From assembly GCF_016595415.1 (NCBI RefSeq), contig NZ_JAENIO010000002.1:62001-126000 (forward strand): a stretch of DNA of 64,000 nt. Reading direction: 5' to 3'. Below are positions 25,308-54,893 of the stretch, piece by piece; position 1 is the first letter of the stretch; each line of letters begins with the position of its first letter. A model generated the notes under the pieces. It did no database searches, was not told the origin of the DNA, and saw only the letters and a program-made list of their open reading frames with translations. Both the position numbers and the translations under genes were made by a program. Origin of the DNA: Roseibacillus ishigakijimensis. Lineage in GTDB: Bacteria; Verrucomicrobiota; Verrucomicrobiia; Verrucomicrobiales; Akkermansiaceae.

Positions 25308-26828
25308 TTAGGATTTTGACTCAAGCAAGCGGGGAGCGGTGAATCCTCGCTCCCGCTCTTCCTTAAGAGCGGCTTTCATTTCGGCCACCTTCTCCGGGTA
25401 ACGGTCTGCCAGGTTGTTCTTTTGCGGAAGGTCTTCACGCAGGTTGAAGAGCTCCACCTCGAGTTCGTCCTGGGGATAGTGGCGGCTCTTCTCCCAAGCC
25501 TGGGCCCGGCGGGGCTGCTGATGCCCGGAGGGAACATCCAGATAGACCCAGTCGCCGATCCGGATGGCATAGCGGTCGGGATAGGTGTTGTGGATGTGGC
25601 TGGCGCGCCCCTTGTCCTCCTCGCCCGCGAGGACTGGGAGCAGGTTGTGCGAGTCTTCCGCGCTGCGAGGAGGGAGTTCGACATTGAGGTGCGCGGCAAA
25701 GGTCGCCATCAAGTCGATTTGGGAAATGAGGGCTTCGCTGACCGAGTGAGGGGCGGTGCGGCCGGGCCATTTGATGAGGAAGGGCACGCGGTGACCACCT
25801 TCGTAGATGTCGCGCTTGAGGCCGCGCAAGGGTTCCGCCGACCAGTGCTGGTGGTTCTTGTCCCGGGCGTAGGCATAGTGTTCGGGGCCATTGTCGGCTG
25901 TGAAAATGATGACGGTGTTGTCGTAGTGCCCGCTTTCTTTCAGCGCGGCCAAGAGGCGACCCACGACCTCATCGGTTTGCACCACGAAGTCACCATAAGC
26001 CCCCGCCTGGGATCGGCCGTCGAATTCGTCGGTCGGGATGATGGGGGCGTGCGGGCTGGGAAAGGAGAAGTAGAGGAAAAAGGGCGTTTTCTGCTTCTTC
26101 TTTTCCGCCAAATAGCGCTCTCCCTCGCGGGTGAGAGCCGGCAGGACGTCGTAAAAATCCCAATCCGAGCGGGCGGCTCCGGGGCGGGTCTCCCAATTGC
26201 CTTCCTTGGTTTTCTGGGCTACGCCGTTTTTCGACAGTGTCGTATCCGGAGCCTCTACGAGGCGGTCGTCGCGAATCCAAGCATAGGGGGGAAAGTTGAT
26301 CACGGTATCGCCGAAATAAGAGTCAAAACCGTGGGCCAGGGGCCCATCGGGAACGGGTTGGCTCCAATCGTAGATCTCGTGGGCCTGTCCTTCCACCCCT
26401 TCTTTCCGGATCGCTTCCCAGTCCCATCCCAAGTGCCATTTGCCAATGCAGGCCGTCTCGTAGCCGGCTTCCTGCATCATCTCCGGCCAAGTCAAGCGCT
26501 CGGGAGCGAAAACCGAAGACCCCATCGCATTGACGATGCTATGGAAATCGCGCCAATGGTAGCGCCCGGTCAAGAGGGCATAGCGGGAAGGCGTGCAAAT
26601 TCCGGAGGAGGAATGCCCGTCGGTGAAGCGCATCCCTTCGCGGGCCAGTTGATCGAGGTGGGGGGTGGGAATCTTGCTGCCCTCGTGGTAGCAACCCAGA
26701 TCGCCGTAGCCCAGGTCGTCGGCATAGAGCACGAGGACGTTGGGTTTTTCCACGGGCGATTGTGCGACCGTCTCCCCGGCAAACAGGAGGGCCGATAGGA
26801 CTGGGATGAGCAAATGGGATGAACGCAT
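25308..26828 (-). CDS. Secreted type I sulfatase (arylsulfatase family)
   Basis: The 506-aa protein has a signal peptide (~1-22). The formylglycine site CTPSR (78-82) is followed by YALLTGRY, the standard sulfatase signature with Cys as the modified residue. Metal ligands are in YADDLGYGDLG (35-45) and in FTADNGPEHYAYA, and KRDIYEGGHRVPFLIKWPG is the second conserved block. It removes sulfate esters from an external substrate, probably a polysaccharide or glycoside; which one cannot be read here. Activity requires a formylglycine-generating enzyme, not encoded in the window. It starts head-to-head with the mechanosensitive channel gene. Confidence 0.92.
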   Translation of the reverse strand: MRSSHLLIPVLSALLFAGETVAQSPVEKPNVLVLYADDLGYGDLGCYHEGSKIPTPHLDQLAREGMRFTDGHSSSGICTPSRYALLTGRYHWRDFHSIVNAMGSSVFAPERLTWPEMMQEAGYETACIGKWHLGWDWEAIRKEGVEGQAHEIYDWSQPVPDGPLAHGFDSYFGDTVINFPPYAWIRDDRLVEAPDTTLSKNGVAQKTKEGNWETRPGAARSDWDFYDVLPALTREGERYLAEKKKQKTPFFLYFSFPSPHAPIIPTDEFDGRSQAGAYGDFVVQTDEVVGRLLAALKESGHYDNTVIIFTADNGPEHYAYARDKNHQHWSAEPLRGLKRDIYEGGHRVPFLIKWPGRTAPHSVSEALISQIDLMATFAAHLNVELPPRSAEDSHNLLPVLAGEEDKGRASHIHNTYPDRYAIRIGDWVYLDVPSGHQQPRRAQAWEKSRHYPQDELEVELFNLREDLPQKNNLADRYPEKVAEMKAALKEERERGFTAPRLLESKS

Positions 26829-31614: not shown

Positions 31615-34600
31615 TCACTCCTGCCCAGCCTGGGGAGCGGGGTAGGCTACCCGTAGAGCCACACTTCCGACCGTGCCCGCCCCACCATCGGCGAAGGCCA
31701 GCTTCACTTCGTTCTGGTCCTTGAGCCAAGCCGGGTCGAGGGAGACCATACGGGTGGTGGCGTAGCCGTGGTCCTGGGGCTGCTCCAGCCGGGGGGCGGC
31801 ATCTTCGACCGGGAGGGCGAGGGGGCGACCGTTGAAGTGGAGGACCAGCTCCTTGCCGGCCTCCACCGGACGCGAGAACCCTATCCGCAAGGTGGCCCGG
31901 AGCGCGCGCTCCGGCTGGTCCACGGAGAGGGCGACCGGTTGCAGGGCGGGAGCGGGCAGGAGAACTTTATCACCATAGTAGGTGCGCTCATTCCACCGGC
32001 TCTTTTCCGCAAGAGGGGCGGGATAGTGGCAAATGGCGACCACGGTCTCCTGAGGTGCCAGGGTGAGGTCACGCAGAGTGGCCGCTTCCTCGCGATAATG
32101 CGGGGTCAGGTTCGGGCGGCGGCTGAGTCGACGCAGCACCACCGCCTCCGGAACGGGCAAGGTCAGCTCCACCGGAGCAGGCAGATCGGCCTGATTGTGC
32201 ATCATGATGAAGAGTTTTGTCCCATCCCTCACCACCCGGGTGATGACGTCGGGATCGGGGTTGTCGGCCCAGACGCGCTCACCACGGACACCGCGGAAGA
32301 GCTGATGGAAGTGTTGCACCGCAGTGGGAACGAGCTCCGGACTGTCTTTGGCGAAGCCCTTCTTCGTGTAGAGGACGGCATAGTATTCCGGGTCCCAGGA
32401 TGACGTTTCGAGGAGCATGAATGGGACTGCCTTGAGCACTAGCTGGGGATGGTCCATGAAGGTGAGGGTGTTTCTGGCCGCTGAGGTGACGAGGCAGAAT
32501 TCCTGAATGGAGCGCACCTGCCGGTCCCTGGCGGGGTTCTCGCTGGTGATGCCGTGGGCCCGGGCCACTTTGTCCAGAGTGACCCATGAGTCGCCTCCCA
32601 GATACCCCCCGTGCTCGCTGATGGCCAGGGGGATGGTTTTGCCAAACTGCTGCCGGGTGTAGGCCCCATAGAGGTCGAGAACTCCCTCGAAGGGGAGTCC
32701 GGTAACCATTGTGCCCGCGAGCTTGTCCCCGTCCCAACGGTAGTAGTCGTAGACGTGGAAGGAGTAGAAATCCAGCTCGCCCCGGGTGGCGTCAATAAAG
32801 CCCTTCATCCCCTTAAAGCCCTGATATTGCCGACTCCAAAGATAACCGGTGGCGTGGCAGGGTCCGCCCACGAGAGTCTCCAGCCCTGCGGCCCGGAATG
32901 CGGCCCGGGTCTCTAGGTGCCAGCGGGCCATTCTCTCCGGTTCCGCCAGGAATTGCCAACTGGGCTCATTGATAGGCTCGAAGTAGCGTGGGCGGGTGAA
33001 GTCGTCATAGCCATATTTGAAGACTGTGGCGGCGAACTCGGCGGCGGCCTGTGAGTTGGCCGGGATGCCAAAGGCTCCCTTCTTCTGAGGCTGGTCTTGC
33101 AGGCTTTCCGGGCGCCAGTTTCCCATGAAGTCGGGGTAGCCTCCCGGTGAACCGTGGGCGATCACGTCGAGCCCCTGGGGGAAATCTTTCTGCAGCTGTC
33201 GCTCCTCCTGTGGGGGATGGGCCTGTAGAAATCGGGTCACCTTCGCCAAGTCGGCTCGGCCCGGATTCCCGGTATCCTCGATCTCTTTCGGCAAACGCCG
33301 CACCTGCCATTTCACCGGACCCAGACTGCGCCCGAAGTTGATGTCGAGTTCGTCCACCAGGTAACGATAGCGCTCCCGATTGCCCACCCGTTGCGGGAAA
33401 CGGGCACCAGGATCACAGATCCCGAAGTAGCGCTCCCGCTGCAGAGTGCTCTCGCCTTCGATGGCGCGCGTGATCTGGGGATGAATCGTGATGTGGGCCA
33501 CTTCGGTGGGCTTCAGTTCGCCGAAAGTGCCGGGGAGTTCGCGTAGTTTCCGCTGCAAGGCCTGCTGCAGGTCCTGAAGGCGCTCGCGATGCTCCTCCTC
33601 ATTGGCCAGATTCGTGGTTTCGCTCGGATCGCTCGCGAGGTGATAGAGTTGGTCTGGGGCGTAGTAGTTGGTGAGATAGGGCGGTTTCGCCTTCATCGTG
33701 AGGCGAATGAGGAAGTTGCCCCCGGGAGGTCCACCGACATGGGAAACCTTGGCCGAGGGGTCGGGCTCCCAAGTGACCCAGGGATGGCGCTCTTTGATCG
33801 CGGCTAGCTCGGCGACCTGCTGTCGCCAGCCCTCGTCCTCCTCCGGTTGCTGGCTGGGCGGGAGGCGGAAGGCCAGATACTTCCAGTCCTTGGTCACCAG
33901 CGCCCTCGTAAAGCCGATCTCGGCGTAGACTTCTTTCCGCCATTTCACCTTCTCGCCTCGCAAGAGAGGCAGGTAGCTCGCGCCATCGAGGGTCATGCCC
34001 GGCAGCGGCTTGGCTCCGCAGGCCTCCAGAATAGTCGGGGCGATATCTACATTGGAGACCAGCTCCTCGGGCTTTTGGGGACTGATGGTGCCCGGCCAAT
34101 AGGCGGAGGAGGGCGTGCGCAGCGCACCCTGATAGAGTGAACTCTTGCTGGCTAGCTCCATGCCGTGGTCATTGAAGTAAATGATCAGAGTGTCTTCGCT
34201 GAGGCCGAGATTTTCGATTTTTTGCAAGATAGCCCCAATTCCGGCATCGAGCCAGGTATCGGGAGCCCGCTCCCGGGGGAGGCCGGCTTCTTGGGTGACG
34301 CGACGAAAAATTTCCTCCCGAGAAGGCATTCCCTCCGGGGCCGGAGCGTTCTCCAGGAGACCCACCGGAGTACTGCGGGGATCGCTCTCCATTCCCTCCA
34401 GGGGAGAGGGCGAGTGAGGCAGAGTGGTGGAAAAATAGAGGAAAAAGGGATTGTCGCGATTGGCTTCGATGAAGGCCAGGGCCCCTTCCGTGATCCACTC
34501 CATATTGTGATGGGCGAGTCCGGTATTACGGAGAGACTTGGAATCGAGTGGGTTGCCGGCATAAACGCGCGACACGTGGTCGAAGCCGTGTTCCGCGAGA

Positions 34601-35103
34601 TCCGCGCAGAGCTTGTTCTGGTTGTCCTGAAGGACTTTCCTCACTGCCGAGTCCCGGGGATCTGAATTGGGAGGGATGGCGTGCTCCAATTTCGCCTGAT
34701 GGCCAACGTGCCATTTTCCAACCAACCCCGTCGTGTAGCCAGCTGCTTGCAAGGCTTTGGGGAGGTTGGGGCGGTCCTTCTCCAGATGGGTATTGAAGTA
34801 GACCTGGGTGGTGCCTTCCGGCGTGATGTCCTGCAAAAACTGGGGGGCCGTGGAGCGGCTGGGATAGCGCCCGGTGAGACAGGTATAGCGACTCGGCGTG
34901 CAAACCGTGCTGCTGGTGTAACTATTCTGGAAATCCGCTCCTTCCCGCGCCAAACGATCCAGATGTGGAGTGAAGGACTTCCCTTCCAGATAGCCAAGTT
35001 GCTCGCGCCGTTGATCATCAGTGATGATGAAAATGACATTGGGACGGCGATCGCGTGCGGCGAGTGACCCAACGAGCAGAAGAAAGAAAACAAGAACTCT
35101 CAT
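31615..35103 (-). CDS. Sulfatase fused to a GH86-like (agarase/porphyranase-type) glycoside hydrolase
   Basis: From ATG 35103, which opens a signal peptide (~1-16), the product is 1162 aa. Residues ~20-520 form a type I sulfatase: IITDDQRREQ, the formylglycine site CTPSR at 68-72 followed by YTCLTGRY, and YFNDHGMELASKSS. Residues ~545-930 form a clan GH-A (beta/alpha)8 domain: RERYFGICDPG, the acid/base in FEPINEPSWQF (~713) and the probable nucleophile in LAISEHGGYL (~830). The rest (~930-1162) is beta-sandwich. The pattern recalls GH86 beta-agarases/porphyranases. A single chain that desulfates and cleaves a sulfated galactan would fit, but the substrate is inference. Confidence 0.8.
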   Translation of the reverse strand: MRVLVFFLLLVGSLAARDRRPNVIFIITDDQRREQLGYLEGKSFTPHLDRLAREGADFQNSYTSSTVCTPSRYTCLTGRYPSRSTAPQFLQDITPEGTTQVYFNTHLEKDRPNLPKALQAAGYTTGLVGKWHVGHQAKLEHAIPPNSDPRDSAVRKVLQDNQNKLCADLAEHGFDHVSRVYAGNPLDSKSLRNTGLAHHNMEWITEGALAFIEANRDNPFFLYFSTTLPHSPSPLEGMESDPRSTPVGLLENAPAPEGMPSREEIFRRVTQEAGLPRERAPDTWLDAGIGAILQKIENLGLSEDTLIIYFNDHGMELASKSSLYQGALRTPSSAYWPGTISPQKPEELVSNVDIAPTILEACGAKPLPGMTLDGASYLPLLRGEKVKWRKEVYAEIGFTRALVTKDWKYLAFRLPPSQQPEEDEGWRQQVAELAAIKERHPWVTWEPDPSAKVSHVGGPPGGNFLIRLTMKAKPPYLTNYYAPDQLYHLASDPSETTNLANEEEHRERLQDLQQALQRKLRELPGTFGELKPTEVAHITIHPQITRAIEGESTLQRERYFGICDPGARFPQRVGNRERYRYLVDELDINFGRSLGPVKWQVRRLPKEIEDTGNPGRADLAKVTRFLQAHPPQEERQLQKDFPQGLDVIAHGSPGGYPDFMGNWRPESLQDQPQKKGAFGIPANSQAAAEFAATVFKYGYDDFTRPRYFEPINEPSWQFLAEPERMARWHLETRAAFRAAGLETLVGGPCHATGYLWSRQYQGFKGMKGFIDATRGELDFYSFHVYDYYRWDGDKLAGTMVTGLPFEGVLDLYGAYTRQQFGKTIPLAISEHGGYLGGDSWVTLDKVARAHGITSENPARDRQVRSIQEFCLVTSAARNTLTFMDHPQLVLKAVPFMLLETSSWDPEYYAVLYTKKGFAKDSPELVPTAVQHFHQLFRGVRGERVWADNPDPDVITRVVRDGTKLFIMMHNQADLPAPVELTLPVPEAVVLRRLSRRPNLTPHYREEAATLRDLTLAPQETVVAICHYPAPLAEKSRWNERTYYGDKVLLPAPALQPVALSVDQPERALRATLRIGFSRPVEAGKELVLHFNGRPLALPVEDAAPRLEQPQDHGYATTRMVSLDPAWLKDQNEVKLAFADGGAGTVGSVALRVAYPAPQAGQE

Positions 35104-51303: not shown

Positions 51304-54300
51304 TCAGGGTGCAGCGGCCCGCAGCCGGAAAAAGGCCTGCGGCTCCCCCGAGTCCGCTGTCACCTCGAAGGGCCCGCTCGCCGGGAGCGCCACTTCGCCC
51401 ACCGTCTCCCAGGAGCCAGCCTCCAGGTTGGTCGTTTTTTCCCAGAAGAGGGTGAGTCCGCTCGCTTCCATGCTCGGGGAGGCCGAGAGCAGCCACCCGT
51501 CGGCCGCGGGGGAGAAGCTCAGGGGCGCGGGGAGGTCCCTTTCTGCAGGAGAAAGGCCGAGCGCATATTCGAGCAAGGCCCCCAGACCATCGCCATCGCT
51601 ATCGTCCCCGGGCGGGGTGGTGAAGGGGCTCCTTGCTTGCGCAAAGACCCAGGCCGCGTAGCCCTCCAAGCGCAGATCATCGATGTAAATGGCGTCGGCA
51701 TTGTCGTCATTGGTCTCATCCTTGAGGTAATACCAGGTGATTTCATTGAGCCCCGGCTCCAGGGTCAGAGAAACCGTCTCCCAGGGCTGCACTCCGGATT
51801 TGGCGGCGATTTGGCGACCATTTTGCCAAACGTAGCCCACATCGAAGGTGTCTTCCGTGGCGACCCGCCACTGGAAGCTCAGGCTGCCCGGCCCGACCAC
51901 GGTGGCAGTCATCGCCGTGCCCTCGTCCGCATCCACCCCACCACTGCGGGCGGCCGAAGTCCCCTCCACGGTAGTGCTCGTCTGGGGATAAAAACTGGGG
52001 ACTTCCGACCGAATGGAGAGCTCGGGCAAATCGAGGGCCCGGGAGAGGGTGCCCTTGGGATAATAGGGCTCCCAGGTGAAGACACGCGTCCTTTCCGCCC
52101 CCTCGCGGGTGGCGGTGAGGGAGACCGCGACGGGCTCCCCCCCCATCTGGCCCTGCAGGAGCCCCTGGGGAGAGAGTGTCCACCCGGGAGGCAAGTCTTT
52201 GGCGGAAAATCGGCTCCCCGCCCGCAGCGTCTCGAGGGCAAAGGCAAACTCCCCGCCATTGGGGAGATAGTGCCGGTGGGGCTGGCGAAAGACCGGCTCC
52301 CGCTGCGAGTGCAGACTGAAGGAATCGAGCCACACCGTATCCGCGCCGCCATCGTATTGACTATTCCGCTGGTAGGAAATGAGGACGGTGTTGCTTGCCT
52401 CCGGGAGTTCGACGGTGATCGGGTGCCATCCCGTCTCGCCGCTGATGGCGCCCGCCTCCTCGCCATTGCAGGTGAGCACCAGCCGATCGAGCAAATACTC
52501 GCTGGAGGCCTTCCACCAGTAGGTCAGGGTGTCGGGCCCGGGGATGGCCAGGCTCAGGGTGACCGTTTCGCCATCGGCCACCCCATTGAGGCGCAGCGCG
52601 TCTTCGCCATCGAAGGTGTCGTCCTCCTGCCATTGCCAGCGCGAGACCTCGCCCCCCATCACGATCTCGCGGGGGACCTCGAAGGCCTCCTTCTCCAGAA
52701 TATCTCCAATCGCGAAGGTCAGAGCTTCGCTGGCTTCTCCAGCCTCATTGCCCGCAGTCAGGGTCACCACATAGTCGCCAAAGAGCGGCTCCTCCCAAGT
52801 GATCACTCCCGTGAACTCATCGATAGTCATCCCAACCGGCTGCCCGCTCAGGGAAAAGGAATTTGGAGTATGGCTGACCTCGGGCTCGTAGCGCAAGGCC
52901 GTGCCCTCATGACCCGTCGCCACTTGCCCACTCGCTATCGCGGGGGGGATGAAGTCGTCATTGAGGATGATTACCGTGAGCGGTCCGTCCGGCTCATTGA
53001 CCTCCACAAGGTCCTCGAAGGCGAACAGAATGGTCTCGTGCTCTTCGGGCTCGCTGTCTCCCAGCAGCGGCAGGGAAAAAGTAAAACTGGTTTGCCCGGG
53101 CGCGAAGGTCACCTCCTGCCGTCCCGGGTCGCTGTAGTCACTCCCCGCCTCGGCCGTCCCGCCTGCCACCACAAGGGAAAAGCTCACCGGAAAGCTCACC
53201 GCCTGTGCCAGCGTCACCGTCACCGCCGCGCTCGTCGTGCCGCTGTCTCCCTCCGTGAGGGCCCGATCAGAGACTTCCAATTGCGCCCTCAGCTCCCGGC
53301 CCGCCAGGGTGAGGGGAGCCGACCCCCCGGGACTGAGCCAATCCGACAAGCGCCGCGAAGCTGTCCCTCCACCCGACCAGGAGCGGGAGAGAAAGCCATA
53401 CCAATCCGAGGCATTGTTGCCACAGGACGCATTGCCCCCAAAGAGTTGCCCGACAATCAAGCCGGACTCATTGAAAAGCGGGGAGCCCGAGGATCCTCCC
53501 TCGGTCGTGCCTTCGTCCCAATCCGCCACCCGCAAAAAGTAGCCAAAGGACGAAGGGGCAGCGCTGCCATAGTCCGTGAGGGTAAGGGGATCGAACTCGA
53601 AGGAAATCCTCTTCTCGGCCACCGCCGGATGGTGGATGGCCACTCCCTCGGTAGGAGGGGAGGACTCGCGCGACCAGCCGGCCAGGTAGGCTCCAGAGGC
53701 AGGGTTCACCGGATCATCGAGCTCAATGAGGCAAAAATCCGAGCCCGCGAACTCGGCCCGCAAGATGGAACCGGAATTGAAAACACTGAGATCGCCATCG
53801 CCCACCCCGCCACTGGCGGCGGAGCCCGGGGTCCGGCAGCTCGAGTTTTCGAAATTCCAGTAAACCACCACCGAGGCATCGTTACTGGCCGTAATGTCGC
53901 AGTGCTCGGCAGTGAGGAAGTAGGGCTTGCCATCCTGCGCCGTATTATTGATGAGCGCGCCCGAGCAGGTATCGATGCCGCTGACCGTATAGGCCCCCAC
54001 CGCCCGGATCTGTCGGCGATAGGCCTCGATGAGCGAACCAAAAGGAAGGTCCTCGACCCCGCAAGCCACATCGATATTGCAAGCTCCCGAGAGATCACCC
54101 CCCATCTTGCCCGGGGCCATTTTCCGGAATCCATAGTTCACCGCCGCGAGGTGCAATTGCAACTGGGGCAAGAGAGCGGCTGGCAGACTCGCCGTGAGCC
54201 GCACCTCTTCTCCCGGAAAGAGCGGCGTCCACAGCTCGCCATGGTCATCATTGTCCCGGGAGGTGAAGGTCACCGCGCCCGCTTGGCCGGGAGATTGCAA

Positions 54301-54816
54301 AACGAGGGTGGCCCCGGGAGGAAGGTGGAAACGGTCAAAGGCGAGATTGAGGGACTGGGCCCCCGCCGCCACGATGGCAAGCTCCCAACGGGCGAGACCA
54401 TCGGCAATCGTCCAAGGGGCCAATTCGCGCGCCGGTTTTGCCACCGGCAGGGGGGTGGCGAAGCGGAAGGGCAGCTTGCGCGCATCCCGTTCCCGGGCTT
54501 CAGCCAAAAGGGGGGCAAGGTCGGGAGCAGGCAAAACCAGGCGCCCGGCCCCCGCCAGAGACGGAGAAGCGTGCCGGGCGGGAGCCATCCGGACCCTTTC
54601 TTCCTCCCCAAGCGCGGCGGGGAGGGAAGGGGAGGACTTCGCGGGAGCCGCCACCTTCCCCGGGCGCAGGACTGAGGGAGAAAAAAGAAACCAACCCAGC
54701 CCACCAAAAAGGAGCAAAGCAAGGGGATGAACAAAAAAACGCCGGGGCATCGGGAAGAACCTGCGCAAGGGGAGAAGAAAGAGCAACTTTTTCAGTTGGC
54801 GAAAGGTGTTTTCCAT
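51304..54816 (-). CDS. Large secreted trypsin-like (lysyl endopeptidase-like) protease with Calx-beta and Ig-like domains
   Basis: From ATG 54816 (preceded by GGAGG) the product is 1170 aa; ATG 54750, starting nearer the membrane-targeting helix (PLALLLFGGLGWFLF), is also possible. The protease domain (~240-490) has CSGALINN, the His in FLTAEHCD (~304), an Asp in SDFCLIELDD (~362) and the Ser in GGSSGSPLF (~444), as in Achromobacter-type lysyl endopeptidases. Calx-beta (~512-620), a putative-Ig domain (GMTIDEFTGVITWEEP), and two or three MAM/jelly-roll-like carbohydrate-binding sandwiches (DTLTYWWKASSEYLLDRL, PGSLSFQWRVATEDTFDVGY) follow. The end, GEPQAFFRLRAA, resembles surface-sorting tails of this phylum. 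Confidence 0.85.
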   Translation of the reverse strand: MENTFRQLKKLLFLLPLRRFFPMPRRFFVHPLALLLFGGLGWFLFSPSVLRPGKVAAPAKSSPSLPAALGEEERVRMAPARHASPSLAGAGRLVLPAPDLAPLLAEARERDARKLPFRFATPLPVAKPARELAPWTIADGLARWELAIVAAGAQSLNLAFDRFHLPPGATLVLQSPGQAGAVTFTSRDNDDHGELWTPLFPGEEVRLTASLPAALLPQLQLHLAAVNYGFRKMAPGKMGGDLSGACNIDVACGVEDLPFGSLIEAYRRQIRAVGAYTVSGIDTCSGALINNTAQDGKPYFLTAEHCDITASNDASVVVYWNFENSSCRTPGSAASGGVGDGDLSVFNSGSILRAEFAGSDFCLIELDDPVNPASGAYLAGWSRESSPPTEGVAIHHPAVAEKRISFEFDPLTLTDYGSAAPSSFGYFLRVADWDEGTTEGGSSGSPLFNESGLIVGQLFGGNASCGNNASDWYGFLSRSWSGGGTASRRLSDWLSPGGSAPLTLAGRELRAQLEVSDRALTEGDSGTTSAAVTVTLAQAVSFPVSFSLVVAGGTAEAGSDYSDPGRQEVTFAPGQTSFTFSLPLLGDSEPEEHETILFAFEDLVEVNEPDGPLTVIILNDDFIPPAIASGQVATGHEGTALRYEPEVSHTPNSFSLSGQPVGMTIDEFTGVITWEEPLFGDYVVTLTAGNEAGEASEALTFAIGDILEKEAFEVPREIVMGGEVSRWQWQEDDTFDGEDALRLNGVADGETVTLSLAIPGPDTLTYWWKASSEYLLDRLVLTCNGEEAGAISGETGWHPITVELPEASNTVLISYQRNSQYDGGADTVWLDSFSLHSQREPVFRQPHRHYLPNGGEFAFALETLRAGSRFSAKDLPPGWTLSPQGLLQGQMGGEPVAVSLTATREGAERTRVFTWEPYYPKGTLSRALDLPELSIRSEVPSFYPQTSTTVEGTSAARSGGVDADEGTAMTATVVGPGSLSFQWRVATEDTFDVGYVWQNGRQIAAKSGVQPWETVSLTLEPGLNEITWYYLKDETNDDNADAIYIDDLRLEGYAAWVFAQARSPFTTPPGDDSDGDGLGALLEYALGLSPAERDLPAPLSFSPAADGWLLSASPSMEASGLTLFWEKTTNLEAGSWETVGEVALPASGPFEVTADSGEPQAFFRLRAAAP

Positions 54817-54829
54817 CAGCCTCCCCCGG

Positions 54830-54893
54830 CACCCCAAAGCAGTGGAGCACCCTTCCAGCGTCCACCCCAAAGCAGTGGAGCGCGCTTCCAGCG
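54830..54893. repeat. Two direct repeats of 31 bp
   Basis: CACCCCAAAGCAGTGGAGC begins both copies (54830-54860 and 54863-54893), and CTTCCAGCG ends both; 29 of 31 bases match at a 33-bp period. The unit lies in the non-coding interval upstream of the protease gene. Similar CAGTGGAGC.CGCTTCCAGCG strings are, as far as I recall, dispersed in verrucomicrobial genomes. Confidence 0.8.

Follow-up and report, generated by a model that had tools for sequence, protein, structure and literature searches.

The fusion gene and its product

The window, i.e. the whole 64,000-nucleotide stretch of Roseibacillus ishigakijimensis DNA analysed here, carries on its minus strand a single open reading frame of 1162 codons without internal stop, which starts with an ATG at 35103 and closes with a TGA ending at 31615 (complete CDS 31615..35103; 1162 aa). 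The features of its product, all encoded on that strand, begin with a hydrophobic stretch (MRVLVFFLLLVGSLAA, residues 1-16; 35056..35103) that is taken as a putative Sec signal peptide from reading the sequence and from its alignment with that of the unfused R. persicicus sulfatase. An S1 formylglycine sulfatase domain follows (residues 18-527; 33523..35052), delimited by PF00884 and by comparison of a structure model with 9fvt, and contains the CTPSR sulfatase signature (residues 68-72; 34888..34902), in which C68 is the predicted formylglycine. The fusion junction (residues 530-537, LKPTEVAH; 33493..33516) leads into a GH86 module made of a TIM barrel and two beta-sandwich domains (residues 535-1158; 31630..33501), as delimited by Pfam, PDB sequence search, profile alignment and structure comparison. 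The module holds the predicted acid/base E713 (32965..32967; in FEPINEP, residues 708-714) and the predicted nucleophile E830 (32614..32616; in ISEHGG, residues 828-833), and its two beta-sandwiches are assigned by Pfam as Porphyrn_cat_1 (PF18206; 31960..32250) and, at the C-terminus, BPA_C (PF18040; 31648..31902).

The earlier note had described one secreted chain with no stop between its domains, and both the uninterrupted frame and the N-terminal signal peptide agree with that description. Third-position GC content (GC3) climbs gently along the frame, from 0.62 to 0.80, without a jump at the junction, and for most of the frame it stays within the range of the neighbouring genes. An AlphaFold model of the whole chain has a mean pLDDT of 74.9, the GH86 half being good and the sulfatase half, modelled from a small number of aligned sequences, poorer. 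The fusion is judged real and intact, and its product probably functional.

The sulfatase module

The Pfam Sulfatase family (PF00884) matches residues 21-363 with an E-value of 1.3e-45, the best PDB sequence match of this half is 9fvt (E 1.4e-71), and an NCBIfam scan of the fusion protein returned sulfatase models only, all of them sub-threshold. Modelled alone with AlphaFold (pLDDT 86.3), the sulfatase half superposes on 9FVT, the enzyme OpSulf1, with Z 45.2 and rmsd 2.5 over 484 residues at 34% identity, the next structure reaching Z 35.4. Residues D29, D30, C68, R72, K130, H132, H230, D312 and K320 are invariant across 19 aligned relatives; the C/S-x-P-x-R motif, here CTPSR, and the metal and catalytic residues that define family S1 are therefore all present, and the claim of an intact formylglycine-type sulfatase holds. 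Genes of the formylglycine-generating enzyme (FGE) family were found in the R. ishigakijimensis genome, and formylglycine is predicted at C68.

The nearest solved structure, at 34% identity, is clearly OpSulf1 of subfamily S1_51, to which the module may belong. Since related sulfatases in Bacteroidota act on mannan or adjoin other carbohydrate genes, the substrate of the module is uncertain. A sulfatase of the same broad group also lies on a Persicobacter plasmid (L111, a 1.5-Mb replicon), beside SusC/D-like and other carbohydrate genes.

The GH86 module

The second domain is a GH86 according to Pfam, to sequence search of the PDB and to comparison of the AlphaFold model with PDB structures alike, and the non-galactanase family considered in the earlier note as a possible alternative has been checked and set aside. 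Porphyrn_cat_1 matches residues 952-1048 above cut-off (E 1.1e-8), and BPA_C falls below cut-off in hmmscan (E 8e-5) and just above it in the genome search. The second half matches the PDB sequences of BpGH86A (4aw7, 7.5e-20), BuGH86 (5ta1, 5.9e-18) and 8h97 (3.5e-17), and profile comparison to GH86 gives E-values of 1e-40 to 1e-48, with similarity spanning the barrel and both beta-sandwich domains. In the predicted model, the GH86 half (residues 533-1158) has VIA-align Z scores of 37.0 to 8h97, 35.8-36.2 to BuGH86 and 34.7 to BpGH86A, with 530-572 residues structurally aligned over the barrel and two Ig-like domains.

Both catalytic glutamates that had been read from the sequence align with proven ones: by profile alignment, E713 occupies the position of the NEP glutamate of known GH86 enzymes (4aw7, 5ta1, 8h97), and E830 that of E322 of BuGH86, the residue changed to Q in 5TA0 (E322Q). 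The module deviates at 17 of the 115 positions that are invariant in seven members of its clade, as against 16 of 114 for the R. persicicus GH86 in the mirrored test; there is no sign of a dead domain, and cleavage of beta-1,4 linkages of agarose or porphyran is its predicted activity. Elsewhere, a GH86 homologue of another Verrucomicrobiota genome (L099:1026-2876 / L011, G453) has YAPMSIPFV in place of the NEP acid/base motif and is possibly non-catalytic.

At the -2 subsite, the porphyranase has F77 and S326, which shape the pocket for L6S, and the agarase T82 and a Met (PMC5849685). L594 and L897 of the fusion align with F77 and S326 of BpGH86A, in a low-identity alignment in which the residue numbers of the paper and of the chain match imperfectly; this is a hint, if only that, of an enzyme which may not hold a 6-sulfate in the -2 pocket.

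Separate genes in relatives and the origin of the junction

In R. persicicus (G001; NZ_BMXI01000010; L045/L055) the same two gene families occur in the same order and on the same strand, but as two adjacent genes, and each of the two proteins has a signal peptide to itself. Two Verrucomicrobiota more distant than this congener also carry the pair unfused, both proteins again having signal peptides: in G298 (L054) the two genes are adjacent, and in G453 (L094) one further sulfatase gene lies between them. The loci of G298 and G453 also contain a second GH86, a GH43/GH117-type propeller (in G298 a GH117; 3R4Y, E 6.6e-162), a GH2 and a sugar transporter, and a GH16 of the G453 locus is PorB-like (3JUU, E 1.5e-63). 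Members of the GH86 clade without an adjacent sulfatase of this clade were found in G209 and twice in G961, where one copy lies near other sulfatases.

No further fused copy was found when 260 genomes of the family, 387 of the order, 384 of the class and 388 of the phylum were surveyed; these sets share members and fall short of a complete census. Other Verrucomicrobiota GH86 frames of 994-1720 aa, considered as possible sulfatase fusions, gave no match to the sulfatase query, and the GH86 of G698, which belongs to the same clade, was rejected as a fused copy, for it starts at a contig end with the apparent tail of its own signal peptide. Among genome contig records R. persicicus alone matched, and among plasmids no record covered 80% of the query. 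The statement that such enzymes are normally separate proteins is correct for the sulfatase/GH86 pair, which is separate in relatives; sulfatase-glycosidase fusions at large are an established design (see below).

The R. persicicus sulfatase gene ends with GTFGEWSSAQ and a stop codon, followed by 16 bp and then by the GH86 gene with its own signal peptide, MKSQTHLLGFILLSSTVTTWSQ. From GTFGE to the first conserved GH86 strand, counted by hand, there are 24 nt in the window and 148 nt in R. persicicus; the stop codon, the 16-bp spacer and the whole GH86 signal peptide are gone and replaced by the junction residues, a net shortening of about 124 nt that keeps the frame. Protein landmarks served to read the junction, since nucleotide alignment is uninformative at this divergence. 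A frameshift, a missed stop or a one- or two-base sequencing error, which the earlier note had named as a possible cause of the join, is ruled out, because a slip could open a stop but could not delete a spacer and a signal peptide.

The two halves have diverged unequally. Between the window and R. persicicus, identity is 67% for the sulfatase halves and 43% for the GH86 halves (L045:7186-9177 versus window 31618-33513), as compared with 80% and 71%, respectively, between G298 and G453. In the GH86 tree the two Roseibacillus sequences group together with weak support (70/57) and on long branches. Either faster evolution of the GH86 or its replacement would account for the asymmetry; given the difference between 43% and 67% and the weakly supported sister grouping, the specificity of the GH86 may have shifted.

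Genomic setting

The fusion gene lies outside any polysaccharide locus, with a Mur-ligase-type (folC-like) gene on one side and a DEAD-box helicase gene on the other. Sulfatase matches number 49 in the genome, which also has one GH86 (the fusion itself) and two GH16, one of which was tested and is laminarinase-like. No agar or porphyran locus was seen around the gene, the genome having been searched for GH86 and GH16. Because the locus is isolated, the GH86 is the only one found and one GH16 is laminarinase-like, a galactan pathway is not evident in this genome.

Other proteins are worth recording. A stand-alone S1 sulfatase of 506 aa (25308-26828, minus strand) follows some 5 kb downstream of the fusion gene, and at 51304-54870 (minus strand) there is a protein of 1188 aa that combines trypsin-like, Calx-beta and putative Ig domains. 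Elsewhere in the genome, a second sulfatase-glycosidase fusion (L049:6428-9421; G000:C133) of 998 aa combines an S1 sulfatase with a GH43 and a 3-keto-disaccharide hydrolase-type domain, and two sulfatases with several hundred Pfam-less residues (L051:3431-6832, 1134 aa; L052:2809-5652, 948 aa) are possible fusions.

Proposed function and alternative explanations

I infer the catalytic activity, the substrate, the order of steps and the benefit of tethering as follows. With moderate confidence, the fusion protein is proposed to be a secreted bifunctional endo-enzyme for a sulfated galactan of the agar/porphyran type, in which the sulfatase acts first and the GH86 next, and which was born by fusion of adjacent genes. 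Adjacent, co-oriented S1 sulfatase and GH86 genes would have been joined by the loss of the stop, the spacer and the downstream signal peptide. By analogy with the endo C6-sulfatase OpSulf1, the N-terminal module would take sulfate off within the galactan chain, and the C-terminal GH86 would then cut the beta-1,4 linkage beside the desulfated unit by means of its two catalytic glutamates; tethering would couple the two steps, and a single signal peptide would export both activities. Desulfation is placed before cleavage because the OpSulf1/PbSulf1-GH195 system needs sulfatase action first.

Red-algal galactan (agar/porphyran) is the best guess at the substrate, since separate pairs lie in loci with GH117, porphyranase-type GH16, additional GH86 and GH2. 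To this extent the galactan substrate suggested by the earlier note has indirect support. Specificity for porphyran in particular is less certain: the GH86 clade differs by alignment from BpGH86A at both -2 positions and no agar/porphyran locus surrounds the gene. A narrower version, possible though doubtful, is that the sulfatase module may act as an endo-enzyme on the L-galactose-6-sulfate of porphyran/agaran and that the GH86 needs the desulfated unit, so that porphyran would be turned directly into neutral oligosaccharides.

It is also conceivable, though unlikely, that the domains work independently on different parts of one mixed galactan, the fusion being a neutral by-product of a deletion, without coupling. 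One deletion between adjacent genes suffices to create it, the fused form is found in one genome only, and the clade members of G209 and G961 do without an adjacent sulfatase of this clade; yet R. persicicus, G298 and G453 all show the pairing as well, and the analogues PbSulf1-GH195 and P36 work in consecutive steps. Less probable still is a GH86 that has drifted to a new specificity, with a sulfated galactan other than agar, or some different sulfated glycan, as the substrate. The unusual residues aligned with the -2 subsite (L594, L897), the long GH86 branch (0.92) and the lack of an evident agar/porphyran locus in the genome would fit such a drift, whereas every GH86 structure found is that of an agarase or a porphyranase and the pairs of relatives sit in agar/porphyran-type loci. 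That an assembly or sequencing error fused two genes artificially is scarcely credible: the genome is a draft in 192 contigs and no close fused copy was found to confirm the join, but the missing stretch of about 124 nt, complete signal peptide included, is absent in frame, GC3 is continuous at the junction and the frame lies well inside a 197-kb contig.

For red-algal galactans, the fusion offers a natural test, within one protein, of whether desulfation is coupled to backbone cleavage, with the unfused R. persicicus pair as its control. Were the sulfatase to prove endo-acting on porphyran, it would also fill a gap, since the porphyran sulfatases of a 2022 review are S1_11 exo-enzymes (PMC9096561).

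Comparison with known fusions and enzymes

The pairing of an S1 sulfatase with a GH86 is new, no such fusion having been found in the open-licence papers searched; the principle of the sulfatase-glycosidase fusion is already known from PbSulf1-GH195 and from the S1_25-GH78 protein P36. The latter, from Formosa agariphila (PDB 6HR5), performs consecutive steps with a GH78 and an S1_25 sulfatase in one chain (PMC8511951); it shares with the present protein the single-chain arrangement, and differs in being exo-acting, in its ulvan substrate and in its sulfatase subfamily and GH family. Planctomycetes from Porphyra have multi-domain sulfatases fused with glycoside hydrolase domains, attributed to gene fusion, and no GH86 partner was noted among them (PMC4807772). 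The GH86 enzymes BpGH86A (4AW7), BuGH86 (5TA0/1/5) and Aga86A_Wa (8H97) have the same fold, the two catalytic glutamates and the two beta-sandwich domains; unlike the fusion, to which they are about 20-24% identical, they have no sulfatase attached and, by alignment, differ from it in the residues of the -2 subsite.

PbSulf1-GH195 of Polaribacter sp. Hel1_33_78 unites an S1_51 sulfatase with a GH195 endo-mannanase, the two being separate (OpSulf1 and OpGH195) in Ochrovirga pacifica, where the sulfatase must act before cleavage; OpSulf1 (9FVT, S1_51), the structure that the sulfatase module resembles most, is endo-acting and removes the C6-sulfate inside an alpha-1,3-mannan chain (PMC13063451). 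As in the present case, an S1 sulfatase and an endo-glycosidase form one secreted chain and a relative has the split form, but the partner is a mannanase and not a GH86, the substrate is sulfated alpha-1,3-mannan, and the Polaribacter protein has a type 9 secretion domain, none having been noticed in the fusion. The fusion adds GH86 to GH195 as a second partner of OpSulf1-like sulfatases, which suggests that this group tends toward ties with endo-glycosidases.
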